Assembly: GCF_009720485.1 (NCBI RefSeq) | Contig: NZ_CP045245.1 | Location: forward strand, 2,666,001-2,730,000 | Direction of reading: 5' to 3' | DNA length: 64,000 nucleotides | From: Cellulomonas sp. JZ18 | GTDB taxonomy: Bacteria > Actinomycetota > Actinomycetes > Actinomycetales > Cellulomonadaceae | Part shown: one piece after another, positions 1,870 to 35,025 of the stretch | Position numbering within the stretch: position 1 is the stretch's first letter | How the letters are laid out: every line of letters starts with the position of its first letter | The notes under the pieces: generated by a model | What the model was told of the DNA's origin: nothing | Database searches by the model: none | Seen by the model: the letters and a program-made list of their open reading frames with translations, nothing else | Position numbers and translations under genes: made by a program

Positions 1870-1979
1870 CTCCGTCCCGCGCGCCCCGGACGGGGGCCTG
1901 CGCACCGACCACCCTGCTGGTGCCGCCCGCGGTCCGCCCGCGCAGCGCTCGTGCACCCGTCCCGGACGCGTGGTCCACT

Positions 1980-4298
1980 GTGCGCGTGCCGCTGACCGTC
2001 GAGCCCTGGACCCTGCGCGAGCCGACGCTGGACGTCGACGACCTGCCCCGCACGGCCGCGCTCCTCACCGTCGCGAACGGGCACCTCGGCGTGCGCGGCG
2101 TGCTCGAGGAGCAGCGGCCCGCCGTCGCCGGCGGCACGCTGCTGGCCCCCGTGTACGAGCGCCACCCGCACGACTACCCCGAGCCCGCGTACGGCTACCC
2201 GGACCACGACGAGCGCCTCGAGCCCGTCGTCGACGCGTGCGGGGTGGACCTCGAGGTCGACGGCGAGCCGCTCGACGTCCGCACGGGCTCCCTCGAGCAC
2301 CACGAGCGGCGCCTCCACCTGCGCACCGGTGTCCTGGAGCGGGAGGCGGTGTGGACCTCGCCCGGCGGCACCCCGGTCGAGGTGCGCACCCGACGCTGGG
2401 TGTCGCTCGTGCGGCGCGAGCTCGTCGTGACGGCGTACGAGGTGCGCGCCCCGCAGGGTGCGCGGGTGCGCGTGCGGGTCGTGCCCGGCTGCCCCGGTCC
2501 GGGGGGCGCCCCCGGCCGCGGGGCCGACGGCAGCGCCGGTCCCGGCCTGGTCAGCGAGGCCTGCGGGCACGACGCGGGCCGCACGTGGGTCGCGCAGCGC
2601 ACCGTGCTCGCCGGTGTGGGGGTCGTCCTGGCGACCGAGCACGACGTCACGGCCGGCGACGGGGTGGTGCACGGCTGGACGCAGGACGCGCACGGGTGGG
2701 TGCTGGACGCGGACCTGCCGCCGGGCGGCTGGGTGCGGCTCGCCGGCCGCGCGGCGTACGCGTGCGGGCGCCGGCCGGTCGAGGGGCTGCTCGCGGACGC
2801 GCGGACGGTCCTGGCGGACGCGGAACGCGCGGGCGAGGACCGGCTCGAGGCGGAGCACCGCGCGTTCCTCGACGACGTGTGGGAGCGGGCGGACGTCGTC
2901 GTCGAGGGCGACGACGAGCTGCAGCAGGCGGTCCGGCTCGCGGTGCTGCACACCGTGCAGGCCGCGGCCCGCGTCGAGGGCACCGGTCTGCGCGCCAAGG
3001 GCCTGACCGGGCTCGGGTACCACGGGCACACGTTCTGGGACGCGGAGGGCTTCGTGCTGCCGGTCCTCGACCACGTGCTGCCGCACGCGTCGGCGGCGCA
3101 CCTGCGGTGGCGGCACGCCACGCTCCCCCGCGCCGTCGAGCGCGCCCGCACGCTCGGGCTGCCGGGCGCCGCCTTCCCGTGGCGGACGATCTCGGGCGAG
3201 GAGTGCTCGGGGTACTGGCCGGCGAGCACCGCGGCCGTGCACGTCACCGCGGACGTCACGGACGCGCTCGTGCGGCACGTGGCCGCGACGGGCGACGACG
3301 CGCTCGAGCAGGAGGTCGGGGTGGACCTGCTCGTGCACGGGGCGCGCTTCTGGATGGGCCGGGGCCACCACGACGACGACGGCGCGTTCCACGTGCACGG
3401 GGTGACGGGACCGGACGAGTACACGGCCGTCGTCGACGACAACACGTACACCAACCTCGTGGTGGCGCGGTCGCTGGAGGCCGCGGTACGCGTCACGGCG
3501 CGCTGGCCGCACGAGGCGCGCCGGCTCGGCGTCGACGACGACGAGCGTGCGCGGTGGGCGGCGGCGGCGGCCGCCGTCGTCGTGCCGTACGCCGCGGACC
3601 TGGGCGTGACCGAGCAGTCCGCCGGGTTCACGCGGCGGCCGCGCTGGGACTTCGCGCGCGTGCCGGACGGGTGGACGCCGTTCGAGGACCGGGTGCACTA
3701 CACCGAGCTGTACCGGCACCAGCTCGTCAAGCAGGCGGACCTCGTGCTCGCGCTCGTCGTGGCGGGCGACCGGTTCACGGCTGACCAGAAGCGCCGCGAC
3801 TTCGCCTACTACGAGCCGCTGACGGTGCGCGACTCGTCGCTGTCGGCGAGCGTCCAGGCCGTCGTCGCCGCCGAGCTGGGCCACCTGACCCTCGCGCACC
3901 GGTACACGCGCGAGTGCGCGTTCATCGACCTGCACGACCTGCGCCACGAGACGCAGGAGGGCGTGCACGTGGCGTCGATGGCCGGGGCCTGGGACGCGCT
4001 CGTGCGCGGGTTCGGCGGGCTGCGGCTGGACCACGGGCACGTGCGGGTCGGCCCGCGCCTGCCGCCGGGCATCTCCCGGCTGCGGTTCCGCGTCCGGGTC
4101 GACGGGTCGCACGTGGAGGTCGACGCCCGGCGCGACGGGGTGACGTACCGGCTGCTGGCGGGTGAGCGGGTCGTGCTGCGCCACGAGGACGAGGAGCTCA
4201 CGCTGTCGCCCGACGCCCCGCAGGTCGAGCGCGAGCTCGTGCCCGTCGCCGAGCCGACGCCGCCCCGGCAGCCGCCGGGACGCGAGCCGCGCGGCTGA
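1980..4298 (+). CDS. Glycoside hydrolase family 65 protein (disaccharide phosphorylase type)
   Basis: GH65 enzymes are mostly inverting phosphorylases of maltose, trehalose, kojibiose or nigerose that release beta-glucose 1-phosphate; a few are hydrolases. The 772 residues fit the family: an N-terminal beta-sandwich (about 1-260), a helical linker and an (alpha/alpha)6 barrel (about 300-690). The general acid is Glu480 in TGPDEYT. Other family landmarks are GYHGHTFWDAE and FPWRTISGEE, and QLVKQADLV near the phosphate-binding side. The substrate cannot be told from sequence. GTG 1980 is used; GTG 1986 is equally possible. A ribokinase-family gene diverges from it, so sugar use is the shared theme. 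Confidence 0.9.
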   Translation: MRVPLTVEPWTLREPTLDVDDLPRTAALLTVANGHLGVRGVLEEQRPAVAGGTLLAPVYERHPHDYPEPAYGYPDHDERLEPVVDACGVDLEVDGEPLDVRTGSLEHHERRLHLRTGVLEREAVWTSPGGTPVEVRTRRWVSLVRRELVVTAYEVRAPQGARVRVRVVPGCPGPGGAPGRGADGSAGPGLVSEACGHDAGRTWVAQRTVLAGVGVVLATEHDVTAGDGVVHGWTQDAHGWVLDADLPPGGWVRLAGRAAYACGRRPVEGLLADARTVLADAERAGEDRLEAEHRAFLDDVWERADVVVEGDDELQQAVRLAVLHTVQAAARVEGTGLRAKGLTGLGYHGHTFWDAEGFVLPVLDHVLPHASAAHLRWRHATLPRAVERARTLGLPGAAFPWRTISGEECSGYWPASTAAVHVTADVTDALVRHVAATGDDALEQEVGVDLLVHGARFWMGRGHHDDDGAFHVHGVTGPDEYTAVVDDNTYTNLVVARSLEAAVRVTARWPHEARRLGVDDDERARWAAAAAAVVVPYAADLGVTEQSAGFTRRPRWDFARVPDGWTPFEDRVHYTELYRHQLVKQADLVLALVVAGDRFTADQKRRDFAYYEPLTVRDSSLSASVQAVVAAELGHLTLAHRYTRECAFIDLHDLRHETQEGVHVASMAGAWDALVRGFGGLRLDHGHVRVGPRLPPGISRLRFRVRVDGSHVEVDARRDGVTYRLLAGERVVLRHEDEELTLSPDAPQVERELVPVAEPTPPRQPPGREPRG

Positions 4299-4318
4299 CG
4301 GGACGCGAGCCGCGCGGC
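4277..4318. repeat. 19-bp direct repeat at the end of the GH65 gene
   Basis: A 19-base block (gggacgcgagccgcgcggc) occurs at 4277-4295 and again, perfectly, at 4300-4318. The first copy lies at the 3' end of the GH65 reading frame and the second in the short gap before the convergent histidine kinase ends at 4331. It may be a local duplication; no function is evident. Confidence 0.7.
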
Positions 4319-4330
4319 GGACGGGGACCG

Positions 4331-6151
4331 TCAGCGCTCGCCGGGCGGGACGGCGGGCAGCGTGACGAGGAACGTCGTGCCCTCGCCCACGGTGCTGCGG
4401 ATCTCCATGCCGCCGCCGTGCGCGTCGACGACCGCCTTGGTGATCGACAGCCCGAGCCCGACGCCGGGGATCGCGCGGCGCGTCGCGTTCGTCGCCCGGA
4501 AGAACCGCCCCGTGAGCTGCGCGAGCTCGTCGGCGGGGATGCCGATCCCGGTGTCGGACACGGCCAGGCGCGCGCCGCCGTCCGGCAGCGGCGTCAGCGC
4601 CACGCGCACGGTCCCGCCGGCGGGCGTGAACTTCAGCGCGTTCGAGACGAGGTTGTCGACGACCTGGCCGAGGCGCACCGGGTCCGCCTCGAGCCGCGCC
4701 TCCTCGAGCTCCGCGACGAGGGTCACCTGCGCCTGCTCGGCCGTCGGGGCGGCGGACGCCACGGACGCGCGCGCGACGGCGGCGAGGTCGGTGGGCTGCG
4801 GGCTGATGGCGAACGTCCCGGCGTCCACCTGCGCGGACAGCAGCAGGTCGCTGACCAGCCGCAGCTGGCGCCGGGCGTTGCGCTCGACGATCGTCAGGTA
4901 CTCCCGCTGCTCGTCGCTGAGCGGCTCGGTGCCGTCCATGAGCAGCTCGAGGTAGCCGAGGACCGACGTGAGCGGCGTGCGCAGCTCGTGGCTGACGAGC
5001 CCGATGAACTGGTCCTTGAGGCGGGCCGCCTCCCGCTCCGCGGTGACGTCCGTGGCGACGACGACGTAGCCGCCGACCGCGCCGTCGGGCTCCAGCCGCC
5101 GCGTCACCGCCAGCCGGACCACCACGTGCGTGCCGTCCGCGCGCACGTAGGTCCAGTCCCGCACGTCGGCGCTGCCCGACCGGACGGGCGCGACGAGCGC
5201 GTCCACGAGGTCCCGCTGCTCGGCGAGCGCCTCGCCGTCCGGCCGGGGCGCCGCGCGGTGGGGGCCCCGTCGCTCGTCGATCTCGCTGCGCAGGTGGAAG
5301 TCGGTCAGGTGCCGGCGCCCGACGACCTCGCCCTGCGCGTACCCGAGCAGACGCTCGGCCCCGGGGTTGAAGACCTCGACGAGCCCTTCGCGGTCGGTGG
5401 CGATGATGGCCTGCTCGGTGGCGGAGTCGATCACGGAGATGAGCTGCTCGCGGGCGGCGCGCTGCGCGCTCGCGACGTGCTGCAGCTCGACCGCCGCCTG
5501 CCGCGTGCGCTCCAGCAGACCCGCCTGCCGCACCTGCAGCGCCTGCAGGCGGCGGTTGTGCGCGCGCAGGCGCTGCGTCATCTCGTGCACGAAGACGCTG
5601 ATCGCGAGCGCGCTGGCCGCCACGAGCAGGCTGCGCAGCACGACGACGTCCTGCTCGACGTCGGGGTCCACCAGGGTGGACGTCAGGACGGTCGCCGCCG
5701 TCCCCAGGGTCGCGACGACGATGCGGGCGCGCCCGGGCCGCGCACTGAGCGTGATGACCGGCAGGTACACCAGCGCGGCGTACGGTGACGCGAGCCCGCC
5801 GGTGCCCATGCGCAGGGCCGCGACCGCGGCGATCTGCAGCAGCGGCAGCACGTCCTCGGCGCCGCCCGGCAGGCGCCGCCACGGCACGGCGAGCGCGAGC
5901 ACGAGCGAGAGCACGGTGAGCCCGGCGGCGACGACCACGGGCGCGGTGTCCGTGACGCGTACGCCCGGCAGCCCGAACGTCGCCGACGCGACCGCGAACA
6001 GGACCGCGAACGGCAGCTGGCGCTCGAGGACCGAGCCCTCCGGCCCGAGGCGCCGGATGAGGTCGCTCAGCGGGTGGGTGGGCGCGTCGTCGTCCCGGGC
6101 CTCCGGCGGTGCGGTGGCCGGGACCGCGGGCAGCGGTGCGGCCGGGCTCAC
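4331..6151 (-). CDS. Membrane-bound PAS-domain sensor histidine kinase
   Basis: A sensor kinase of 606 residues. Five or six hydrophobic segments (about 48-190) form the membrane part. A PAS domain follows (about 234-370, with AIIATDREGLVEVFNPGAE). Then come HisKA with the phospho-acceptor His388 in SHELRTPL and a complete HATPase domain (N-box NLVSNALKF, G1 DTGIGIP, G2 GVGLGLS). It is the last gene of a six-gene operon. Its GTG start overlaps the stop of the 63-residue membrane protein by 4 bases (GTGA). The receiver domain fused to the deacetylase at the head of the operon is the obvious candidate partner, which is inference. The signal it senses is unknown. Confidence 0.92.
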   Translation of the reverse strand: MSPAAPLPAVPATAPPEARDDDAPTHPLSDLIRRLGPEGSVLERQLPFAVLFAVASATFGLPGVRVTDTAPVVVAAGLTVLSLVLALAVPWRRLPGGAEDVLPLLQIAAVAALRMGTGGLASPYAALVYLPVITLSARPGRARIVVATLGTAATVLTSTLVDPDVEQDVVVLRSLLVAASALAISVFVHEMTQRLRAHNRRLQALQVRQAGLLERTRQAAVELQHVASAQRAAREQLISVIDSATEQAIIATDREGLVEVFNPGAERLLGYAQGEVVGRRHLTDFHLRSEIDERRGPHRAAPRPDGEALAEQRDLVDALVAPVRSGSADVRDWTYVRADGTHVVVRLAVTRRLEPDGAVGGYVVVATDVTAEREAARLKDQFIGLVSHELRTPLTSVLGYLELLMDGTEPLSDEQREYLTIVERNARRQLRLVSDLLLSAQVDAGTFAISPQPTDLAAVARASVASAAPTAEQAQVTLVAELEEARLEADPVRLGQVVDNLVSNALKFTPAGGTVRVALTPLPDGGARLAVSDTGIGIPADELAQLTGRFFRATNATRRAIPGVGLGLSITKAVVDAHGGGMEIRSTVGEGTTFLVTLPAVPPGER

Positions 6152-6339
6152 CGCGTCACGGCCTGCAGCACGACGGCGAGCGCCGTCGCCGCGGCGGCGA
6201 CCGCCGAGGCGACGACCGTCCACCGCTCACCGCGCCGGTTCGCCGCGATCTCGTCCTCGAGCGCGTCCGGCGTGAGCGTGGCCCAGTGCTGCGTGCGCGG
6301 CACCTGCCCGTGCGCCGCGGTCGGCGTGGGTGCGCTCAT
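6148..6339 (-). CDS. 63-residue single-pass membrane protein in the glycan operon
   Basis: Not recognised. It has a soluble N-terminal half (with TLTPDALEDEIAANRRGERW) and one C-terminal hydrophobic helix (about 43-61, ASAVAAAATALAVVLQAV). Its ATG overlaps the glycosyltransferase stop (ATGA), and its own stop overlaps the kinase start (GTGA). It is therefore translated as part of the operon and is not a chance frame. Small membrane partners of this kind often accompany processive GT2 synthases (PgaD beside PgaC is the known example), which makes an accessory role for the glycosyltransferase a reasonable guess. Confidence 0.75.
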   Translation of the reverse strand: MSAPTPTAAHGQVPRTQHWATLTPDALEDEIAANRRGERWTVVASAVAAAATALAVVLQAVTR

Positions 6340-7823
6340 GCCGCCACCTTCCCCGTCTTCTCGGTCTTGTCCCACACCATCGCCGCGCCGCGCCGCTCCT
6401 GCGCGTACGCGTCGAGGGTGATGGCGCACAGCAGGGGGCCGTACCCGACCGCGTAGAGCAGCGGCCGGGACAACCAGCCGACCCACCGGCGCCCCTCGAG
6501 GGCGCGGACCACGCGGGCCATGAGCATCGACAGCGCCGGCCAGGAGTAGAGCAGCAGGAGCAGGGCCTCGCGGCCCGCGTCGCTCAGCTCGAGCCCGAAC
6601 CAGCCGGGGACGACCACGGGCCAGAACTCGGGGAAGCCCGCCGCGACGACGAGGGCGAGCGCGCCGAGCCCCGGGAACGTGAGCGCCTCGAACCAGGACC
6701 GGCGTGCGGTGTCGAGGTCGACGAGCAGGGCGGTCACGGTGACGTACACGTACGCGGCGACGCCGACCCACCACAGCGTGCCGAACAGCCGCGTCGCCGT
6801 CTCGGGCGAGACCAGGTGCAGCCCGACCAGCCCGACGGACGCCAGGACCAGCGTGAACGGCAGCGCGTAGGTGGAGAACCAGATGAGGCCGAACCCGAAC
6901 GACCCGAGGCGGTGGGTGCGCGACGGCCGGAACCACAGGTGCCGGAAGCGGCGGGTGATCTGCGCGTTCCCGCGTGCCCAGCGCGCCCGCTGCTTCCACA
7001 GCGCCCGCACCGAGTCCGGCTCCTCCGCCAGCACGACGGCCGACCCGTCGAACACGACCTGCCGCCCCTCGAGCTGGGTGAGGAACGTCGTGACGGTGTC
7101 CTCGGCGAGGGTCGTGGTGTCGATGCGCCCGCCCAGCGCCACGAGGTTCTCCCGCGTGTGCAGCTGCGCGCCGCCGGCGAGGCAGGCGAGCGCGCCGAGG
7201 ACGTTCTGCGCCCGGCGCGCGCACGCCTGCGCGGTCACGTACTCGTAGCCGATGAACCGGGCGACCGCGCCCGGGCGCTCGCTGCCCTCACGGATGTAGG
7301 CCGTGACCGCACCGATGCGCGGGTCGGCCAGGTGCCGCGTCATCCGGCGCAGGGAGTCGGGCCGGAAGATGACGTCGGCGTCCGTGACGAGCAGCGCCTG
7401 CATCCAGTCGTCCGCCAGGACGCGCTCGATGCCGTGGTTCAGCGTGTGCGCCTTGCCCTGCCCGCCCTGCTCGCGGCGCAGGTGCACGACCCGCCCCGGG
7501 TAGCGCTCCGCGAGCGCGCGGACGACCTCGGGCGTGTCGTCCGTGCTCGCGTCGTCGACGACGTGGACGCGCAGGCGCTCGGGCGGGTACTGCAGCCGCA
7601 TCAGCCGCCCCACCGACGCGGTGAGCACCGCGCCCTCGTTCCAGGCCGGGATGAGCACGGCGACGTTCGGCAGGTACGGCGCCGCCCGCGAGAGGTGGTT
7701 GCGCCACGCGTGCACGGGCAGCAGCACGTACTGGTACAGGCCGCCGAGCGCGGGCAGGACCCCGATCGCGACGCAGACGACGAGCAGGGCGACGAGCACG
7801 TCGCGCAGCAGGTCCGCGGTCAT
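6336..7823 (-). CDS. Processive GT2 family glycosyltransferase, membrane synthase type
   Basis: 495 residues resembling the NodC/PgaC/hyaluronan-synthase group, which polymerise and extrude beta-linked sugar chains from UDP-sugars. One N-terminal membrane helix (about 8-28) precedes the GT-A domain. All acceptor and donor motifs are visible: VLIPAWNEG, Asp90/91 in VVDDAST, DAD at 148-150, TLAED at 238-242 and QRARW at 278-282 (the QxxRW motif of processive enzymes). Four to six C-terminal membrane segments follow. The ATG overlaps the PHP gene stop (ATGA). The actual sugar is not readable. The nearby PIG-L deacetylase domain suggests an N-acetylated sugar, by inference. Confidence 0.9.
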   Translation of the reverse strand: MTADLLRDVLVALLVVCVAIGVLPALGGLYQYVLLPVHAWRNHLSRAAPYLPNVAVLIPAWNEGAVLTASVGRLMRLQYPPERLRVHVVDDASTDDTPEVVRALAERYPGRVVHLRREQGGQGKAHTLNHGIERVLADDWMQALLVTDADVIFRPDSLRRMTRHLADPRIGAVTAYIREGSERPGAVARFIGYEYVTAQACARRAQNVLGALACLAGGAQLHTRENLVALGGRIDTTTLAEDTVTTFLTQLEGRQVVFDGSAVVLAEEPDSVRALWKQRARWARGNAQITRRFRHLWFRPSRTHRLGSFGFGLIWFSTYALPFTLVLASVGLVGLHLVSPETATRLFGTLWWVGVAAYVYVTVTALLVDLDTARRSWFEALTFPGLGALALVVAAGFPEFWPVVVPGWFGLELSDAGREALLLLLYSWPALSMLMARVVRALEGRRWVGWLSRPLLYAVGYGPLLCAITLDAYAQERRGAAMVWDKTEKTGKVAA

Positions 7824-8584
7824 GCCGTCCTCCCGCCGGTGCCCGCCGCCGCGAGCCGTCGGTACCGGCCCACGTCGTCGGCGACGTGGGCGTCCGTGGA
7901 CGCGACGAGCAGCACGCCGGCCTGCGCCCACCGCGCGCGCACGCGCGGGCCCGGGCAGTCCCACTTCTCGTTGACCTCGGCGGGCGTGCCGGAGGCGACG
8001 AGCACCGCGGCGAGCGCGTCCAGCAGGTCGTCCGGCACGTCGTCCTCCGTGAGCCCGACCTTGGGCAGCACCGAGAACGGGTGCGCGAGCTGGGCGCGGC
8101 CGGTGCGCTCGACGGCGCGCGCGGTCGCCGTCACGAGCATCTCCACGACGTCCGCCGGCCGCACCGCCCCGGCGTCGAGCCGCTCGCGCACCGTGCGCGG
8201 GCTCCACGGGCCGTCCGGCCCGGGCAGCTGGTGGTCCGCGAGCAGCACCCGGTCCGGGCCGTCCGGCGTGCCGAGCGCCGCGAGCACGTCGGCGGGGGCG
8301 TCGACACGGCCGCCGGTGTCGAGGACCTTCGCCTCGACGCCCGTCAGCACCTCGAGCCCGTCGACCGGCGGCAGCGCGCGCACGGCCGCGAGCATCGCGG
8401 GGACGTGCGTCGACGTCGTGCGCACGTGGTCGACCATGCGGACCCGCCGCAGCCCGGCGCGCGCGGCGGCCGCCAGGTTCTGCGCGGGCGTCGAGACGGC
8501 GTCGTCGGAGAAGGTGGAGTGCACGTGGTGGTCCTCGTCCAGGCGCGGGGCGCCGGGCGCGAGGTCGCGGCCGTCGGTGCTCAT
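7820..8584 (-). CDS. PHP-domain metal-dependent phosphoesterase
   Basis: 254 residues of the PHP (polymerase and histidinol phosphatase) superfamily. Metal-binding motifs are in order: DHHVHSTFS near the N-terminus (HxH), MVDHV, GVEAKV, AQLAHPFS and STDAHV near the C-terminus. PHP proteins hydrolyse phosphate esters. Relatives include histidinol phosphatase, nucleases and the CpsB-type protein-tyrosine phosphatases that control capsule synthesis. Placement between an ATP-grasp enzyme and a processive glycosyltransferase, with ATGA overlaps at both ends, suggests a step or control point in the same pathway. Substrate unknown. Confidence 0.88.
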   Translation of the reverse strand: MSTDGRDLAPGAPRLDEDHHVHSTFSDDAVSTPAQNLAAAARAGLRRVRMVDHVRTTSTHVPAMLAAVRALPPVDGLEVLTGVEAKVLDTGGRVDAPADVLAALGTPDGPDRVLLADHQLPGPDGPWSPRTVRERLDAGAVRPADVVEMLVTATARAVERTGRAQLAHPFSVLPKVGLTEDDVPDDLLDALAAVLVASGTPAEVNEKWDCPGPRVRARWAQAGVLLVASTDAHVADDVGRYRRLAAAGTGGRTA

Positions 8585-9549
8585 CGCGGTGCCAGGACGT
8601 CCTCGACGGGCAGGAACACGTCCTCGAGGTAGCGCACGTTCGCCACGGCGCGGTGCTCGACGTGGTCCGGGACGTCGCGGCCGAGCACCGCGTCCAGCAC
8701 GAGCGACGGCATGTCGACGCCCGACGCGACCGTCAGCGGCATCGACCCGGGGAACCGCGGGTTGACCTCCAGCAGCGCCGGCCGGCCCTCGGCGTCCCGC
8801 TTCAGCTGCACGTTCGCGACCGACGTCAGGCCGACCGCGCGCGCGACGGCGGTGGCCGTGGCGACCAGCTCCTCGTCGTGCAGCGTGAGGCCCGCGACGG
8901 CGATGCCCGAGTCCACGCGCTTGCGCGCCCGCGGCACCGCTGCCACCACGTGCCCGTCCGGCCGCGCGAGCACGTCCACGGAGTACTCGTCGCCCGGCAG
9001 CAGGTCCTGCACCAGCAGGTCCTCCTCGGCGTGCACGGCGTCGAGCTCGGCGGCCGAGGTCACGGTGCGCACCCCGCGCGATCCCGCCCCGCGACGCGGC
9101 TTGACGATGACGGGGAACGACCAGCCGTCGAGCGCCTGCGGCGTGCCGACCAGCTCGGTGCGCGGCACCCGGACCGTGCGCGCGCACGCGCGCGCCAGGG
9201 CGAGCTTGTCCAGGCACGTCTCGATCGTCGCCAGGGACGGCGAGGCGAGCAGCGTCCCCGCGGCGGCGAGCTCGTCGCGGACCGCCGCGAGGTGCGGCAG
9301 CTCCACGTCGACCGTGGGGTACACGACGTCGACGCGGTCCTCGCGGCACGTCGCCCGCACGACGTCGACGAAGTCGTCGGCGCTCCCCGCCGGCACCAGG
9401 CGGCGGCGCTCGGCGGGCACGAGGTACAGCGCGCTCGCCCACGGGTCCATGTCCGCCGCGAGGACCTCGACGTCGCCGCGGCGCTGCAGGGAGCGGATCA
9501 CCGCGACACCCGCGGCCCCGCCCGCACCCGTGACCAGGACCCGCGTCAT
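8581..9549 (-). CDS. ATP-grasp family carboxylate-amine ligase, CarB-like
   Basis: 322 residues. The N-terminal pre-ATP-grasp domain (VLVTGAGGAAGVAVIRSLQ) is Rossmann-like. The ATP-grasp core follows (FPVIVKPRRGAGSRGV, then EEDLLVQDLLPGDEYSVDV and LLEVNPRFPGSMPLT with the metal ligands Glu and Asn). The closest recognisable architecture is that of carbamoyl-phosphate-synthase-like ATP-grasp proteins. The family forms amide or peptide-type bonds by way of an acyl phosphate. In this operon it could acylate an amine exposed by the PIG-L deacetylase domain; that is a hypothesis. The ATG overlaps the fusion-gene stop and the stop overlaps the PHP start, both ATGA. Confidence 0.87.
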   Translation of the reverse strand: MTRVLVTGAGGAAGVAVIRSLQRRGDVEVLAADMDPWASALYLVPAERRRLVPAGSADDFVDVVRATCREDRVDVVYPTVDVELPHLAAVRDELAAAGTLLASPSLATIETCLDKLALARACARTVRVPRTELVGTPQALDGWSFPVIVKPRRGAGSRGVRTVTSAAELDAVHAEEDLLVQDLLPGDEYSVDVLARPDGHVVAAVPRARKRVDSGIAVAGLTLHDEELVATATAVARAVGLTSVANVQLKRDAEGRPALLEVNPRFPGSMPLTVASGVDMPSLVLDAVLGRDVPDHVEHRAVANVRYLEDVFLPVEDVLAPR

Positions 9550-10613
9550 GCCACCACCCCCTCGTCCCGCGCCGCGTGCAGGACGGCCGCCCCGGCCGCC
9601 CGCTCCCCCGCGCCGAGCGCCGCCGCGGCGCGCACGGTCTCCAGGGGCTCGGCGTACGTGCCCGTGCCGAACCGCGACCAGTACCGCGCGGTCGCGCGCA
9701 CCAGGTCCGGCTCCATGTAGTCCCGGTGGGCCTGCGAGGCGAACGCGGCAAGCATCTGCAATTTCGTCTCGACGAAGCCGTCGACCGGCACGAACCGGTC
9801 GGGGCGGAACTCGACCGTGGCGGACGGGCTCTGGAAGCACGCGAGCGACGCGACGCGCCGGGTCGCCACCATGACGGCCTCGTGCACCGCGCGGTGGTCC
9901 TGGTGCCGGTCGTGGCGCGAGTGCGTGTAGCAGACGGTGGGGCGCACGTCCGCGACCGTCTCCTCCACGACCCGGATCAGCCCCTCGGCGGGCGCCATCC
10001 TGGTGTCGGGGAAGTCGTGCAGGAACAGCCGGGCGCCGATGACGGCCGACGCCGCCAGCGCCTCGCGCCGCCGCACGTCGGCGTCGCCGCCCACGGCACC
10101 GCCGGACATCGTCAGCACGACGACCGTGTCGCCCGCCGCCCGGTGGGACGCCAGCGTCGCGCCCACGCCGATCTCCACGTCGTCGGGGTGCGCGCCGACG
10201 GCCAGCACGACCCCGCCGGACGACGCGGTCGCGCGCCGCCGCCCCTCGGCGGCGAGCGCCGTGACGCGCTCGAGCAGCGTGCTCGCCGCGACGGGCTTGA
10301 CGAGGAACTCGTCGGCGTCGCGGCGCAGCGCCTCCACCGCGTAGTCCACGCTGGCGAACGCGGTCATGACGGCGACGGGCACGCCGGGCGCGCGCGAGCG
10401 GAGCTCGACGAGCAGCTCGAGCCCGCTCATCCCGGGCATCTGGATGTCGGTGACCACGGCGTCGAACCGGTGCTGCGCGACCTGCTCGAGCGCGGACGAC
10501 GGGTCGTGCACGACCGTCACCGCCATACCGCCGCGACGGCCCAGGACCGTGCGCACGTACTGCGCGGTGTCGACGTCGTCCTCGACGACGAGGACCTCGT
10601 ACTGCTCGTCCAC
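9546..10613 (-). CDS. Response-regulator receiver fused to PIG-L/LmbE deacetylase
   Basis: First gene of the operon, 355 residues. Residues 1-125 are a CheY-like receiver with the acidic pair 12/13, phospho-acceptor Asp56 (VVTDIQMPG), Thr84 and Lys106 (LVKP). After a short linker, residues 133-355 are a PIG-L/LmbE domain with GAHPDD at 140-145 and HDRHQDH at 234-240, which matches the zinc-binding His/Asp/His set of MshB and PIG-L enzymes. These enzymes remove acetyl groups from N-acetylated sugars. A receiver as the input to an enzyme of this kind is uncommon; phosphorylation may gate the activity. The GTG start at 10613 has a strong purine-rich ribosome site (ggggggag) upstream. Confidence 0.9.
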   Translation of the reverse strand: MDEQYEVLVVEDDVDTAQYVRTVLGRRGGMAVTVVHDPSSALEQVAQHRFDAVVTDIQMPGMSGLELLVELRSRAPGVPVAVMTAFASVDYAVEALRRDADEFLVKPVAASTLLERVTALAAEGRRRATASSGGVVLAVGAHPDDVEIGVGATLASHRAAGDTVVVLTMSGGAVGGDADVRRREALAASAVIGARLFLHDFPDTRMAPAEGLIRVVEETVADVRPTVCYTHSRHDRHQDHRAVHEAVMVATRRVASLACFQSPSATVEFRPDRFVPVDGFVETKLQMLAAFASQAHRDYMEPDLVRATARYWSRFGTGTYAEPLETVRAAAALGAGERAAGAAVLHAARDEGVVA

Positions 10614-10771
10614 TGCGCTCCCCCCCGGGCCGTCCCCGGTCACGCTAACCCGGCCCGACGGGGCGCGGCGCACGACGGGGACGTCCCGGGCAGGCCGCTG
10701 ACCTGCGGCGTCGGGACGAATGGGGACGGGTCGGGCGGTCGCGTGCAGACATCACCCGATGACGCGCGCAC

Positions 10772-10804
10772 GCCCCGGCCCCGCTGGGTGCGGGACCGGG
10801 GCGT
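10772..10804. terminator. GC-rich hairpin downstream of the tcyP-like gene
   Basis: A stem of about 13 pairs (gccccggccccgc against gcgggaccggggc, one imperfect pair) around a 5-6 base loop. It lies between the divergent end of the receiver/deacetylase operon and the 3' end of the symporter at 10852. No T-tract follows, as is usual at this GC content. It would serve the minus-strand symporter transcript. Confidence 0.5.
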
Positions 10805-10851
10805 GCGGCGGCGCGCGCGGCGCCGTGGTGCGGGGGCGCGGGGGCGCGGGG

Positions 10852-12372
10852 TCAGCCGCGCAGGCTCGCGGCCTCCTCGCGGGCGGGCACGGTGGCGTCG
10901 GTGGCCTGCGTGTCCGCCTGCTCCTCGCGCACCTGGTCGACCTCGTCACGGAACAGGTCGTCGACGCTCGCCGACTCGTACCGGGCCACGTCGAGGATGC
11001 CCTCGCGCTTGGCGACGATCGCCGGCACGAGCGCCTGCCCGGCGACGTTCACGGCCGTGCGGCCCATGTCGAGGATCGGGTCGATCGCCAGCAGCAGGCC
11101 GACGCCCGCGAGCGGCAGGCCCAGCGTCGACAGCGTGAGCGTGAGCATGACGACCGCGCCGGTCAGGCCCGCGGTGGCCGCCGAGCCGACGACCGACACG
11201 AACGCGATGAGCAGGTAGTCCGTCACGGACAGGTCCACGCCGAACAGCTGCGCGACGAAGATCGCCGAGATCGCCGGGTAGATCGAGGCGCAGCCGTCCA
11301 TCTTGGTGGTCGCGGCCAGCGGCACCGCGAACGACGCGTACGGCGCCGGCACCCCGAGGTTGCGCTCGGTGACCCGCTGCGTCACGGGCAGCGTGCCGAT
11401 GGACGAGCGGGACACGAACGCGAGCTGGATCGCCGGCCACGCGCCGCGGAAGTACGCGCCGACCTTCAGGCCGTTGGTGCGCAGCAGCACCGGGTAGACG
11501 ACGCCCAGGACGACCGCCAGGCCCACGTAGATCGCCAGCGCGAACGTCGCGAGCGGGGCGAGCAGGTCCCAGCCGTAGGTCGCGACGGCGCGGCCGATGA
11601 GGCCGAGCGTGCCGAGCGGCGCGAGGCGGATGACCCACCACAGCACCTTCTGCACGACCGTCAGCGCCGAGCGGCTGAACGCGAGGAACGGCTCGGCGGC
11701 CTTGCCGGTGCGCAGCGCGGCGATGCCCACCACGAGCGCGACGACGACGATCTGCAGGACGTTGAACGAGATCGACGTGTCGGCGGTGAAGGTCCCGTCC
11801 GCGCCGGCCTCGAGGCCCGTGTCGGCCTCCAGGCCGAGGAAGTTGCCCGGGATCAGGCCGTTGAGGAAGTCGAGCCAGCTGCCGGTGGAGCTGGGCTCGG
11901 CGCCCTCCTCCGCGGTCAGCGTCGTGCGGGCGCCGGGCTGGAAGAGCAGGCCGAGGCCGATGCCCACGGTCACCGAGATCGCGGCCGTGATCGCGAACCA
12001 CAGCAGCGTCTGCCAGGCGAGCCGGGCGGCGTTCGTCACCTGCCGCAGGTTCGCGATCGAGGCGACGATGGCCAGGAAGACCAGCGGCGGGACGATCGCG
12101 CGCAGGAGCGTCACGAACGCCGAGCCGATCTCGCTCAGCGTGGTGGTGAGCCAGTTGGGGTTCCCGTCGGCGTTCACGGGGCCCATGCGCAGCGCGAGCC
12201 AGCCGAGCAGGACGCCCAGGCCGAGGCCCAGGAGCACCTGCACGGTGAAGGACGGCATCCGCAGCCGGCGCTTGGGGGCGTGGTGGTGTCGGTCGTGGTG
12301 GAGGACACGGGTGTCGGTGCCTTTCGCTGGGCGCGCGGGGGCGCCGTCGGCGGTGCGTGCTGGTCTCGTCAC
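10852..12372 (-). CDS. tcyP: Dicarboxylate/amino acid:cation symporter, TcyP-like (probable cystine uptake)
   Basis: 506 residues of the DAACS family, sodium- or proton-coupled carriers with eight helices and two re-entrant loops. C-terminal landmarks are FVSRSSIGTLPV (HP1 serine-rich tip), TTKMDGCASIYPA and DPILDMGRTAVNV. The last two resemble E. coli YdjN/TcyP more than DctA or GltP, from memory. Cystine is also supported by the upstream Cys-containing leader peptide. A His- and Arg-rich stretch precedes the first helix, so the true start may be the ATG near 12258 rather than GTG 12372; neither has a convincing ribosome site. A charged tail (EEQADTQATDATV) ends the protein. Confidence 0.82.
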   Translation of the reverse strand: MTRPARTADGAPARPAKGTDTRVLHHDRHHHAPKRRLRMPSFTVQVLLGLGLGVLLGWLALRMGPVNADGNPNWLTTTLSEIGSAFVTLLRAIVPPLVFLAIVASIANLRQVTNAARLAWQTLLWFAITAAISVTVGIGLGLLFQPGARTTLTAEEGAEPSSTGSWLDFLNGLIPGNFLGLEADTGLEAGADGTFTADTSISFNVLQIVVVALVVGIAALRTGKAAEPFLAFSRSALTVVQKVLWWVIRLAPLGTLGLIGRAVATYGWDLLAPLATFALAIYVGLAVVLGVVYPVLLRTNGLKVGAYFRGAWPAIQLAFVSRSSIGTLPVTQRVTERNLGVPAPYASFAVPLAATTKMDGCASIYPAISAIFVAQLFGVDLSVTDYLLIAFVSVVGSAATAGLTGAVVMLTLTLSTLGLPLAGVGLLLAIDPILDMGRTAVNVAGQALVPAIVAKREGILDVARYESASVDDLFRDEVDQVREEQADTQATDATVPAREEAASLRG

Positions 12373-12776: not shown

Positions 12777-13451
12777 GTGACCGTCGCCGACGCCGCCCGC
12801 GTCCCCTGCGACCCCGACCTGCCGCTGTCCGTCCGGCTGCGCACCGGCACGCGCGCCGACCACGAGGCGGCCGAGCGGAGCGCGTTCGTCGAGCACCTCC
12901 TGTCCGGCGCGCTCACGCGGGACGCCTACGTGGACCTGGCCGTGCAGCAGCACGCCGTGTACACCGCGCTCGAGGAGGTGGGCGACGCGCTGCTCGCCAC
13001 GACCCCCGACGCGTCCGCCGTCGTCCTCGAGGACCTGCGCCGACTTCCGTCGATCGAGGACGACCTCGCGTTCCTGCTGGGCGCCGACTGGCCGGCCCGG
13101 GCGCGCGTCCTGCCGGCGACCGCGCGCTACGCCGCGCACCTGCGCGAGCACGCCACCACGCTGCCGCGCTGGGTCGCGCACGCCTACACGCGCTACCTCG
13201 GCGACCTGTCGGGCGGCCAGGTCGTCCACCGGATGATGCAGCGGCACTACGGGCTGGGCGAGCAGGGCCTGTCGTTCTACCGCTTCGCCGCGGCTCCGAG
13301 GGTCACGCCGTTCAAGGACGAGTACCGCGACCGGCTCGACGCGCTGCCGCTGACCGAGGAGCAGCGTCGGGAGGTCGTCGACGAGGCCCGGCGGGCGTTC
13401 GCCCTCAACCGCGGCGTCTTCGCCGACCTGGGCGCTGTCCACCACCCCTGA
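12777..13451 (+). CDS. hmuO: Biliverdin-producing heme oxygenase
   Basis: A 224-residue HO-1/HmuO-type enzyme that opens heme to biliverdin, carbon monoxide and ferrous iron with electrons from a reductase. The proximal heme ligand is His29 in TGTRADHEAAE. The distal-helix glycines are in YLGDLSGGQ (about 140-148), the signature that lets the helix kink over heme. The length is that of bacterial HmuO. The GTG 12777 start has cgaggag before it. No heme importer or iron-regulator gene adjoins it, so it may serve general heme turnover or iron release. Confidence 0.93.
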   Translation: MTVADAARVPCDPDLPLSVRLRTGTRADHEAAERSAFVEHLLSGALTRDAYVDLAVQQHAVYTALEEVGDALLATTPDASAVVLEDLRRLPSIEDDLAFLLGADWPARARVLPATARYAAHLREHATTLPRWVAHAYTRYLGDLSGGQVVHRMMQRHYGLGEQGLSFYRFAAAPRVTPFKDEYRDRLDALPLTEEQRREVVDEARRAFALNRGVFADLGAVHHP

Positions 13452-13558
13452 CGCCGCCCGCCGGCCTCCGGCCCTCCTCCTGCGTGCTGAGCCGGACGCG
13501 GCCGGCTCCACCCGACGACGGTGCCGGGGCCCGCGGCGGCCGTGGCAGGGTGACGTGC

Positions 13559-14992
13559 GTGACCACCGCTCCGCTGCCCGCGCCGCTGCCCGCGGCGCCG
13601 CCCGTGGCCGCCGACGCCGTGGCCGGCGACGCACCCGTGCGGGGCGCGCTCACGGAGCTGCAGGCGCGCCGGCTGGGGCCGGTGCGCCGCTACTTCGCGC
13701 AGCACCCCCGCGCGATGGACGCGGTCGTCGTCGTCGTCTACGCGCTGCCGGGCCTGCTCCTGGCCACGGCGGCCTCCGACACCGCGATCCGGCGCGAGGA
13801 CGTGGGCGACGGCCGCATCGCAGTCATCCTGGCCGTCATGCTCGGCGGCTTCGTGGCCGGCGCGGTCGCGCTCAACTGGCGGCGCACGCGGCCCGTCACC
13901 GTGGCCGGCACGCTGGCCGGACTGGTCGCGCTGTCGTACGCCCTCACCGGGTCGCCGGGCACGCTCGACCTCGCCCTGACCCTCGCGGTGTACGCGGTCG
14001 CCGCGAACCGCCCACCGCGCGTCACCTGGGCCACCGTCGGCATCGCGTACCTCGTCGTCGCCGGCAGCACGCTGGCCTGGCAGGACGACGACCTGGTGGA
14101 GGTCGACGCGGCCGTGACCGCCCCCGCGCCCGCCGGGGACCCGGCGACCGCGGACGTCGACGTCCTCGCGGTCGCACCCACGCCGCTCGACGACGGCGCC
14201 TCCATGCCGGCGCGGGTGTTCAGCGCGTCGGCCGAGCTCGCGGTCCTGCTCATCGCGACGTCCATCGGCACGAGCGTGCGCAACCGCCGCCTGCACGTGG
14301 CCGAGCTCGTCGAGCGCACGAACGCCCTGGCCCGCGAGCGCGACCAGCAGGCGCAGATCGCGCAGGCCGCGGAGCGCTCGCGCATCGCCCGGGAGATGCA
14401 CGACGTGGTCGCGCACAGCATCACGGTGATGATCGCGCTGTCCGACGGCGCGAACATCGCGCTGACGCGCTCGCCCGACGCCGCGCGCACCGCGCTCGGC
14501 GAGCTGTCGTCCACGGGGCGGTCCGCGCTCGCCGAGATGCGCCGCGTCCTGGGCGTGCTCGACGACGACGGCGCCCCGATGACCCCGCAGCCCGGCAGCC
14601 ACGACCTCGTCGCGCTCGTGGAGCGTTTCCGCACCGCCGGCCTGCCGGTCGACGCCCGCGGCCTGACCACGGCCCTGCCCGACGAGGCGACGCTGCAGAT
14701 CGCGGTGCACCGCGTGGTCGCCGAGGCGCTCACGAACGCCCTGCGCCACGCCCCCGGCACGCCCCGCGTGCAGCTGTGCCTGACCCGCACCGAGACCGCC
14801 GTCGTCGTCGAGGTGCTCGACGACGGCCCGCGCGGGCCCGTCCCCGACGCCGGTGGGGCCGGCCGCGGGCTCATCGGCATGCGGGAGCGCGCCGCCGTGT
14901 ACGGCGGTGCGGTCGAGGCCGGACCACGACCCGAGGGTGGGTGGCGCGTGCGCGTCACCCTGCCCTGGACCACGACCACGGAGGACGCATGA
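13559..14992 (+). CDS. NarL-type sensor histidine kinase (HisKA_3)
   Basis: 477 residues. Four or five N-terminal membrane helices (about 53-240) are interrupted by an acidic loop rich in Ala, Pro and Asp (about 175-218). The dimerisation/phospho-acceptor domain has His281 in REMHDVVAHS, as in the HPK7/DesK-LiaS group. A HATPase domain follows (EALTNALRHAP, GRGLIGMRERAAVYGG). It overlaps the response regulator by ATGA, so the two form a cognate pair. GTG 13559 is chosen because agggtga is well spaced before it; GTG 13550 is in frame upstream. Confidence 0.92.
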   Translation: MTTAPLPAPLPAAPPVAADAVAGDAPVRGALTELQARRLGPVRRYFAQHPRAMDAVVVVVYALPGLLLATAASDTAIRREDVGDGRIAVILAVMLGGFVAGAVALNWRRTRPVTVAGTLAGLVALSYALTGSPGTLDLALTLAVYAVAANRPPRVTWATVGIAYLVVAGSTLAWQDDDLVEVDAAVTAPAPAGDPATADVDVLAVAPTPLDDGASMPARVFSASAELAVLLIATSIGTSVRNRRLHVAELVERTNALARERDQQAQIAQAAERSRIAREMHDVVAHSITVMIALSDGANIALTRSPDAARTALGELSSTGRSALAEMRRVLGVLDDDGAPMTPQPGSHDLVALVERFRTAGLPVDARGLTTALPDEATLQIAVHRVVAEALTNALRHAPGTPRVQLCLTRTETAVVVEVLDDGPRGPVPDAGGAGRGLIGMRERAAVYGGAVEAGPRPEGGWRVRVTLPWTTTTEDA

Positions 14993-34630: not shown

Positions 34631-34661
34631 GTCCGCGCCGACGTGCGGCGGGGGCTGGGAG

Positions 34662-35025
34662 TGGAGGTGGCGGGAATCGAACCCGCGTCCGATGACGTGG
34701 AACCAGGGATTCTCCGGGTGCAGTCCGCTAGCGAGTTTCTCGGCCCCCACGTTCACACGGACAAGACGTGGACAGGCCCAGTCGGCTAGGAGTCCCGCCC
34801 GCCCCACCGACGAGGACGGACAGCAGTGGCTCTCTAGATGACGCCAGTGACTAAGCCGAGAGCATGCTTAGGCTGACGGACTTCGAGGCTCGCTCAGGCG
34901 GCGAGGGCGAAGTCGGTGCGCTTGTTATCGGCACCTATGAGTCGCACGGAGCGTTTACGAGATAACCGTGCGTCCTCGACCCGCTTCTCCTGGATCGACG
35001 ACCACCGTCGAAACCGATCACCCCC
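34662..35025 (-). ncRNA. ssrA: tmRNA (transfer-messenger RNA)
   Basis: The 5' end GGGGGTGATCGGTTTCGAC and the 3' end ggttcgattcccgccacctcca form the tRNA-Ala-like domain: 5' GGGGGUG pairs with 3' CACCUCC, and the T-arm is intact. CCA is not encoded. The tag frame at 34932-34894 reads ADNKRTDFALAA and ends in TGA. The C-terminal ALAA is the ClpXP/ClpAP degron used on proteins released from stalled ribosomes. SmpB, its obligate partner, is at 47171-47646. The size (364 bases) is typical of one-piece tmRNA. A true tRNA was excluded because only the half-domains are present, 300 bases apart. Confidence 0.95.

Follow-up and report, generated by a model that had tools for sequence, protein, structure and literature searches.

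What is made by an operon in which a two-component receiver is fused to a PIG-L-type deacetylase and placed beside a membrane glycosyltransferase and a sensor kinase, and does an outside signal decide the chemistry of the product? The question is raised by six genes of Cellulomonas sp. JZ18 (contig NZ_CP045245.1, positions 2,666,001 to 2,730,000; this whole stretch of 64,000 nucleotides, with a G+C content of 76.2%, is referred to as the window). The answer that we favour, with about an even chance of being right, is a phosphorelay-controlled glycan pathway of the synthase type. The genes form a minus-strand run from 10613 to 4331:

10613-9546, minus strand: receiver/PIG-L fusion, first gene of the operon (GTG start, 355 residues, without membrane segment)
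9549-8581, minus strand: ATP-grasp ligase of the PRK12767 / 2PN1 type (322 residues)
8584-7820, minus strand: PHP-type metallohydrolase (254 residues)
7823-6336, minus strand: membrane glycosyltransferase of family 2 (GT2; 495 residues; DD, DAD, AED and QxxRW motifs)
6339-6148, minus strand: small protein with one C-terminal membrane helix (63 residues; start overlapping the GT2 stop codon)
6151-4331, minus strand: membrane sensor histidine kinase with a PAS domain (GTG start, 606 residues)

A preliminary description, made from these letters alone, had called this a six-gene, fully overlapping operon, and translation of the window agrees with it exactly, both in the coordinates and in the 4-base overlaps at all five junctions (ATGA at four, GTGA at one). 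By hydropathy, the small protein has a single helix and the kinase three strong segments; the receiver/PIG-L, ATP-grasp and PHP proteins have no such segment.

The most unusual element is the first gene product, in which Pfam recognizes a receiver (Response_reg PF00072, 100 bits) and a PIG-L domain (PF02585, 89.9 bits against a gathering score of 28.2). In an alignment of 95 fusions including the window copy (90 distinct rows), the receiver residues Asp56 and Lys106 are present in all 95 and Thr84 in 93, with Ser in the other two; the AHPDD part of the catalytic zinc motif is likewise found in 95/95, and the four positions of HQDH in 94, 93, 94 and 95. With so little variation at the phospho-acceptor and deacetylase residues, both halves look selected for function. 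Among solved structures, the PIG-L profile (which includes YaiS) matches 2ixd (90.7 bits) and the BshB1 structure 6p2t (87 bits), and its PDB matches include BshB1, MshB and pseudoaglycone deacetylases. Identity with BshB1 itself was rejected (77.6 bits against an equivalog cut-off of 182.5). The deacetylase is predicted to be cytosolic and, because it lacks a membrane segment and is tied to a receiver, should act before the membrane or at its inner face. The fusion occurs in several phyla in the genome scan described below; the closest named relatives among the best 80 are nearly all Cellulomonas, with one metagenome-assembled genome (MAG) labelled Brevundimonas. A second type of receiver/PIG-L protein was also seen (L039, L051, L056, L064, L069, L070, L097; such labels denote related loci), followed by a kinase; close by are an ATP-grasp gene of a distant kind and, in reverse orientation, a GT2 from a different subfamily. 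Both types occur together in Cellulomonas sp. KH9 and C. avistercoris.

The GT2 domain scores above the Pfam gathering threshold, and the processive character previously assigned to it, with a complete QxxRW motif, is borne out: the motif reads QRARW, and all 27 sequences of an alignment, the window's among them, have Q278, R281 and W282. D90 D91, D148-A-D150 and E241 D242 are kept in the same alignment, as is a C-terminal W484-x-K486-T487-x-K489-x-G491-x-V493. Among structures, the archaeal mannosyltransferase PcManGT is matched best, and the multi-helix C-terminus aligns with hyaluronan synthase (over 378 residues) and BcsA (over 367 residues). The protein has what is generally expected of a synthase, a membrane GT2 with a processive signature and a synthase-like fold. 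Its best NCBIfam model is PgaC_IcaA, at 119.5 bits against a cut-off of 422.3, and the GT2 profile gives E. coli PgaC 96.6, YaiP 40.5 and NfrB 18.1 bits.

The small protein behind the GT2 recurs. In a redundant set of 78 stretches whose GT2 exceeds 500 bits, 55 have an open reading frame (ORF) of 43-105 residues that encodes a single strong helix and begins at the GT2 stop or close to it; in three of the other 23 the GT2 is cut off. Of the 55 ORFs, 51 begin exactly at -4, starts nearest to -4 being preferred. These proteins share an acidic/basic stretch with the consensus ADEIAADRRAERRLI, followed by a helix ending in V-V-R. A profile built from 53 seeds and run on six frames of 192 loci (28,159 ORFs) gave 64 matches above 30 bits, most of them seeds (the independent ones are L044, L048, L049 and L099), and a next best score of 17.7. 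Of these matches, 56 directly follow a GT2; the remaining eight are the window's own copy (L159), a duplicate of the L089 locus, and three Leifsonia operons, each together with a duplicate. In the Leifsonia operons (L044:11872-12042, L048:11768-11941, L049:11779-11952) the small protein stands behind PHP and the GT2 is elsewhere in the genome; its occurrence where no GT2 adjoins it suggests a role with the soluble enzymes too. The family accompanies this GT2 in Actinomycetota, Proteobacteria and Rhodothermales. Pfam gives nothing for the window's copy, none of the six members scanned attains the cut-off of any Pfam or NCBIfam model, and the named database members among those listed are annotated as hypothetical or uncharacterized. 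Judged by its profile, the 63-residue protein is a member of a conserved family without a name.

The ATP-grasp protein matches ATPgrasp_Ter and ATP-grasp_3 (Pfam, above the gathering score for ATP-grasp). A fold search is uninformative on the substrate, since it matches biotin carboxylases, PylC and an amino-acid ligase alike; the ligase may carry out the amidation proposed earlier. The PHP protein scores just below the gathering score of PF02811 (25.2 against 26.4 bits), and in an alignment of 23 sequences including the window copy its metal-site residues H22, D27, H53, E84, H118, H168 and D231 are invariant, with H20 and H233 at least 90% conserved. Its profile is closest among solved structures to YcdX (43.7 bits) and PolX (39.9 bits); the capsule regulator CpsB, to which it had been likened, has neither a model nor a structure among the family and structure matches listed, and no direct comparison with CpsB was made. 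The kinase carries HATPase_c (101.5 bits), HisKA (69.6 bits) and PAS_9 (31.8 bits), all above the Pfam gathering scores.

The arrangement recurs far outside this strain, contrary to the outcome that the preliminary description had named as refuting its reading, an order confined to this strain. A scan of 84,980 species genomes for receiver/PIG-L (E-value 1e-3) gave at least 554 similar stretches, not necessarily all of them fusions; the best 80 were analysed, a sample that leans towards close relatives, and profile scans found both domains in all 80. In 45 of these the receiver/PIG-L gene is followed in order and on the same strand by ATP-grasp, PHP and GT2, and in 34 of the 45 a kinase comes next. 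Of the ordered loci, 12 belong to Cellulomonas, 10 to Microbacterium, six to Blastococcus and two to Leucobacter; eight further named genera contribute a single locus apiece, and the last seven come from MAGs or strains without a name. The gene set is conserved, and its order kept, across many genera. Among the other stretches, four have ATP-grasp and GT2 without PHP (Kangiella, Marinicella and two gammaproteobacterial MAGs), four have ATP-grasp, PHP and a kinase with the GT2 not adjacent, five have a kinase and then ATP-grasp in reverse, with L064 and L097 resembling these five, and the last 20 are truncated, rearranged or consist of receiver/PIG-L with or without a kinase. The ATP-grasp gene is also reversed in a Burkholderiales MAG. 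Four-base overlaps are found in relatives at 45/56 ATP-grasp/PHP, 32/48 PHP/GT2 and 27/66 PIG-L/ATP-grasp junctions, counts that are biased upwards by taking the start nearest to -4.

Co-inheritance of the genes is equally clear. Within the genus, ATP-grasp is present in 21 of 36 genomes (E-value 1e-30), and the identical 21 hold PHP (1e-30), GT2 (1e-100) and a PIG-L relative above 300 bits; in all 21 (L001-L021) the fusion with the receiver adjoins the ATP-grasp gene. By the same thresholds the other 15 genomes have none of these four genes. PIG-L relatives that score lower (253-293 bits) occur in six of these 15, and two of the 21 have one in addition to the stronger copy. The chance that one gene would match another so exactly is 1.8e-10 if genomes are independent, a figure weakened by kinship. 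In genome G008 the GT2 is present although it lies about 2 Mb from the ATP-grasp gene; in G013 it is on a different contig, but the assembly is broken within PHP and the genes may still be linked. Because the order recurs in many genera and the genes are inherited together, the operon is more than a chance assembly.

A genome-wide check for GT2 in 17 genomes extends this pattern. All four genomes with a GT2-less operon, C. algicola and three Leifsonia (L024, L044, L048, L049), have a GT2 of 788-803 bits elsewhere, and the six genomes without a GT2 match (L076, L078, L079, L084, L086, L054) are also without ATP-grasp. In L091, L093 and L095 the receiver/PIG-L gene is isolated, and ATP-grasp and GT2 form a group at another place in each genome, joined by PHP in that of L093; the L092 genome has two separate pairs, PIG-L/GT2 and ATP-grasp/PHP. 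Two genomes speak against the rule of co-occurrence. That of Blastococcus atacamensis (L053) has ATP-grasp and PHP with a best GT2 of merely 140.7 bits, a stronger one having been lost, broken or left unassembled, and that of L089 has GT2 and no ATP-grasp match at 1e-40. In four further loci from Bacteroidota, Myxococcota and a Frankia MAG (L188, L186, L187, L192), ATP-grasp, PHP and GT2 were seen apart from receiver/PIG-L; several of these loci adjoin other kinases or receivers.

The system is nevertheless patchy in its prevalence. A whole-fusion search of a sample of the phylum, with five candidates scored per genome, found it in at least 3 of 396 genomes, and a PIG-L search with up to eight scored per genome in 4 of 346, our own included in both. 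In the corresponding sample of the Kangiella phylum, 36 of 349 genomes match at 1e-28, Kangiella included. Of the other 35 matches 29 were examined, and no fusion was seen among them: they lack a receiver signal, and neither ATP-grasp nor GT2 lies within about 1.5 kb. These 29 (L119-L147) are PIG-L proteins that stand alone in genomes of 1.3-2.9 Mb and share 36-44% identity with the Kangiella one.

Relatives that lack the receiver indicate what it may contribute. In L152 the order PIG-L, ATP-grasp, PHP and GT2 is kept without it, which suggests that the receiver is a control added to a PIG-L/ATP-grasp/GT2 core. The receiver-less loci L155, L157 and L158 have PIG-L, a GT2 of another subfamily and ATP-grasp. 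In two of these a WecB-type UDP-N-acetylglucosamine 2-epimerase follows (L155, 10373-11590, 254.6 bits; L158, 5606-6727, 271.4 bits; wecB cut-off 210.15), and in L157 the contig stops ahead of the epimerase position. This neighbour points to an N-acetylhexosamine (HexNAc) sugar and hints at one of the N-acetylmannosamine type.

The proteobacterial loci add candidate components at either end of the pathway. A divergent hybrid kinase faces the receiver/PIG-L gene in gammaproteobacteria (L087:5980-8821; partly L094, L100 and L101). An H-NOX gene is present in L087 (Pfam, 106 bits), with a similar ORF in L094 by sequence only, and was not seen in L100 or L101. The signal in two of these loci could be nitric oxide, since the H-NOX gene adjoins the kinase. 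A TPR protein of 414-468 residues follows the GT2 in all four readable proteobacterial loci (L087, L094, L101, L099), the contig of L100 stopping within the GT2, and its tail resembles an outer-membrane barrel as judged by eye only. No PgaA or BcsC cut-off is reached by the TPR proteins of L087, L094 and L101. Assignment of these three to the YaiO family was rejected, as none matches TIGR04390 at an E-value of 0.001 (YaiO itself scores 182.4 bits). By sequence or clustering only, a NarL-like regulator ORF was noted in L087, L100 and L101, and a low-molecular-weight tyrosine-phosphatase-like ORF near the gammaproteobacterial clusters.

The surroundings of the operon in the window are these:

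1950-4298, plus strand: GH65 family protein, the downstream flank, convergent with the operon and ending at 4298
10852-12372, minus strand: SDF dicarboxylate symporter, the upstream flank
12777-13451: heme oxygenase
13484-14992: HisKA_3 kinase

A promoter and terminator scan of 4200-10900 gave 0 and 0, and shuffled sequence 0.0 and 0.3. In the relatives sampled, the genes that flank the operon (ABC ATPase, aminotransferase, CN hydrolase, FAD-binding, FMN reductase, IMPDH) seem to be particular to each lineage. A tmRNA gene was found at 34659-35025 on the minus strand, with the tag ADNKRTDFALAA.

In the favoured glycan pathway, the membrane PAS kinase would phosphorylate the receiver, and phosphorylation would gate the cytosolic zinc deacetylase, by activation or repression. 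The PIG-L domain would then act at the inner membrane face and take the N-acetyl group off an amino-sugar precursor, be it a nucleotide sugar, a sugar phosphate or a primer. To the amine thus exposed the ATP-grasp ligase may couple an amino acid or another carboxylate. Deacetylation followed by reacylation is known from mycothiol and bacillithiol synthesis, and would be the simplest chemistry here because the ligase adjoins the deacetylase. The PHP enzyme would strip phosphate from a pathway intermediate, the GT2 would polymerise the tailored sugar and move the chain across the membrane, and the one-helix protein may anchor the soluble enzymes or the GT2 at the membrane. In proteobacteria, the outer-membrane-type TPR protein would export the chain. 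What the sequences show directly are the enzyme classes, the intact catalytic and phospho-acceptor residues, the gene order, the co-inheritance, a deacetylase that lacks membrane and export signals, and the conservation of the small protein; the amino-sugar substrate, the order of deacetylation and reacylation, a polymer as product, gating by phosphorylation, the pairing with this kinase and the task of the small protein are inferred. One intriguing but tentative extension is that this is an undescribed, multi-phylum system in which a receiver-switched deacetylase and the ATP-grasp enzyme swap the N-acyl group before polymerisation, such that a signal sets the chemistry of the glycan, with the microprotein holding the assembly together.

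Other outcomes of the same enzymology have to be weighed. The GT2 might place one or a few sugars on a lipid carrier or membrane lipid without polymerising them, and deacetylation by PIG-L and aminoacylation by ATP-grasp would then yield an aminoacyl-glycolipid that alters charge under signal control, following the logic of HpnI/HpnK or mycothiol synthesis. PcManGT as best structural match of the GT2 fits this, as do the absence of an exporter from the six genes (Pfam) and the PDB matches of the PIG-L domain, since PIG-L enzymes of known role (BshB1, MshB, pseudoaglycone deacetylases) act on small glycoconjugates; the QxxRW motif, the C-terminal helices shared with hyaluronan synthase and BcsA, and the TPR protein next to the GT2 in proteobacteria argue for a polymer instead, and we regard the glycolipid as a doubtful though serious candidate. 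Still smaller products are unlikely. A deacetylated amino sugar or its ligated product could be a signal or a thiol- or metal-binding metabolite, with the GT2 merely performing a final conjugation. Such a pathway would share the deacetylase and ligase logic of mycothiol and bacillithiol synthesis and would suit the three Leifsonia, in which PIG-L, ATP-grasp, PHP and the small protein stay together with the GT2 elsewhere; these genomes still hold the GT2, however, and across the 36 genomes of the genus its presence in 21 coincides exactly with that of ATP-grasp and PHP.

The preliminary description had likened the GT2 and the small protein to PgaC/PgaD and the deacetylation to PgaB, components of the poly-N-acetylglucosamine (PNAG) system. 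Here the earlier analogy gives way. PgaC_IcaA is the top NCBIfam model of the GT2, and E. coli PgaC is recognized by the GT2 profile, but the GT2 falls far short of the PgaC cut-off, and the profile of the small protein, which gives family members more than 30 bits, gives E. coli PgaD 2.5. The deacetylase, behind a receiver and without signal or membrane segment, is unlikely to meet an exported glycan, and no PgaB-type domain is found in the six genes. Membership in pga/ica is rejected on cut-offs and topology, and a variant PNAG system in which PIG-L replaces PgaB is improbable. Relative to the synthase-type pathway that we favour, the resemblance to PNAG is one of parts: the pgaABCD/ica systems deacetylate their product and have a GT2 synthase with a small membrane partner, and those of Gram-negatives have an outer-membrane protein with TPR repeats. 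Comparable elements are present here, with a TPR protein of putative outer-membrane type in proteobacteria, whereas the small protein is unrelated to PgaD by profile and the deacetylase is not exported.

Signal-controlled polysaccharide synthases are mostly governed by cyclic di-GMP (c-di-GMP) or transcription. The control point here appears to be a deacetylase joined straight to a two-component receiver, ahead of polymerisation; if so, the chemistry of the glycan (its charge or side group), besides its amount, might track an outside signal. As the set is co-inherited in several phyla, including soil genera that can be grown, a direct test of phosphorylation against glycan composition is feasible. 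Neither the receiver/PIG-L fusion nor the gene set was found described in the open-licence literature searched. By term search, PIG-L and LmbE are unmentioned in two signalling censuses (PMC1183210; PMC5847659), a silence that weighs little because the former sets other enzymatic outputs aside and the latter covers archaea; a term search of PMC12419801 found neither name.

Some Cellulomonas produce curdlan, and a literature search showed no link of curdlan to this operon. The likeness to BshB1 and MshB lies in the PIG-L family and its zinc motif, with the operon enzyme below the BshB1 cut-off. A receiver fused to an enzyme is familiar from the chemotaxis protein CheB. Closer in composition is MTH_548 of methanogenic archaea, in which receivers are joined to a GT2 domain, PF13641, the same Pfam domain as here, and which is reported from a single family (PMC5847659); in our system it is the deacetylase that carries the receiver, and this fusion spans several phyla. 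The NfrB/NfrA/WecB (NGR) polysaccharide of E. coli combines a c-di-GMP-controlled GT2, an outer-membrane partner and HexNAc supplied by WecB (PMC8669472; PMC8669469). It shares with our loci a GT2, here under proposed signal control, a putative outer-membrane partner in the proteobacterial ones and, in L155 and L158, the WecB-type epimerase beside PIG-L, GT2 and ATP-grasp, and differs in that its control is c-di-GMP rather than the proposed receiver on the deacetylase, in the low score of NfrB, and in that no PIG-L, ATP-grasp or PHP gene is annotated in the E. coli nfr region.

The closest named genes are yaiS-yaiP-yaiX-yaiO of E. coli, an uncharacterised locus with a PIG-L-type deacetylase beside a GT2-type glycosyltransferase and an outer-membrane protein, in which yaiX is interrupted by IS2 in strain MG1655. 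YaiS scores 121.6 bits with the PIG-L profile of this operon; YaiP reaches only 40.5 bits with that of the GT2, no ATP-grasp, PHP, receiver or kinase is annotated at the locus, and the YaiO model is unmatched by the TPR proteins of the related proteobacterial clusters. The present analysis adds an unnamed microprotein family and provides a context for the yai locus, which is the nearest relative by genes, as NfrB/WecB is by logic.

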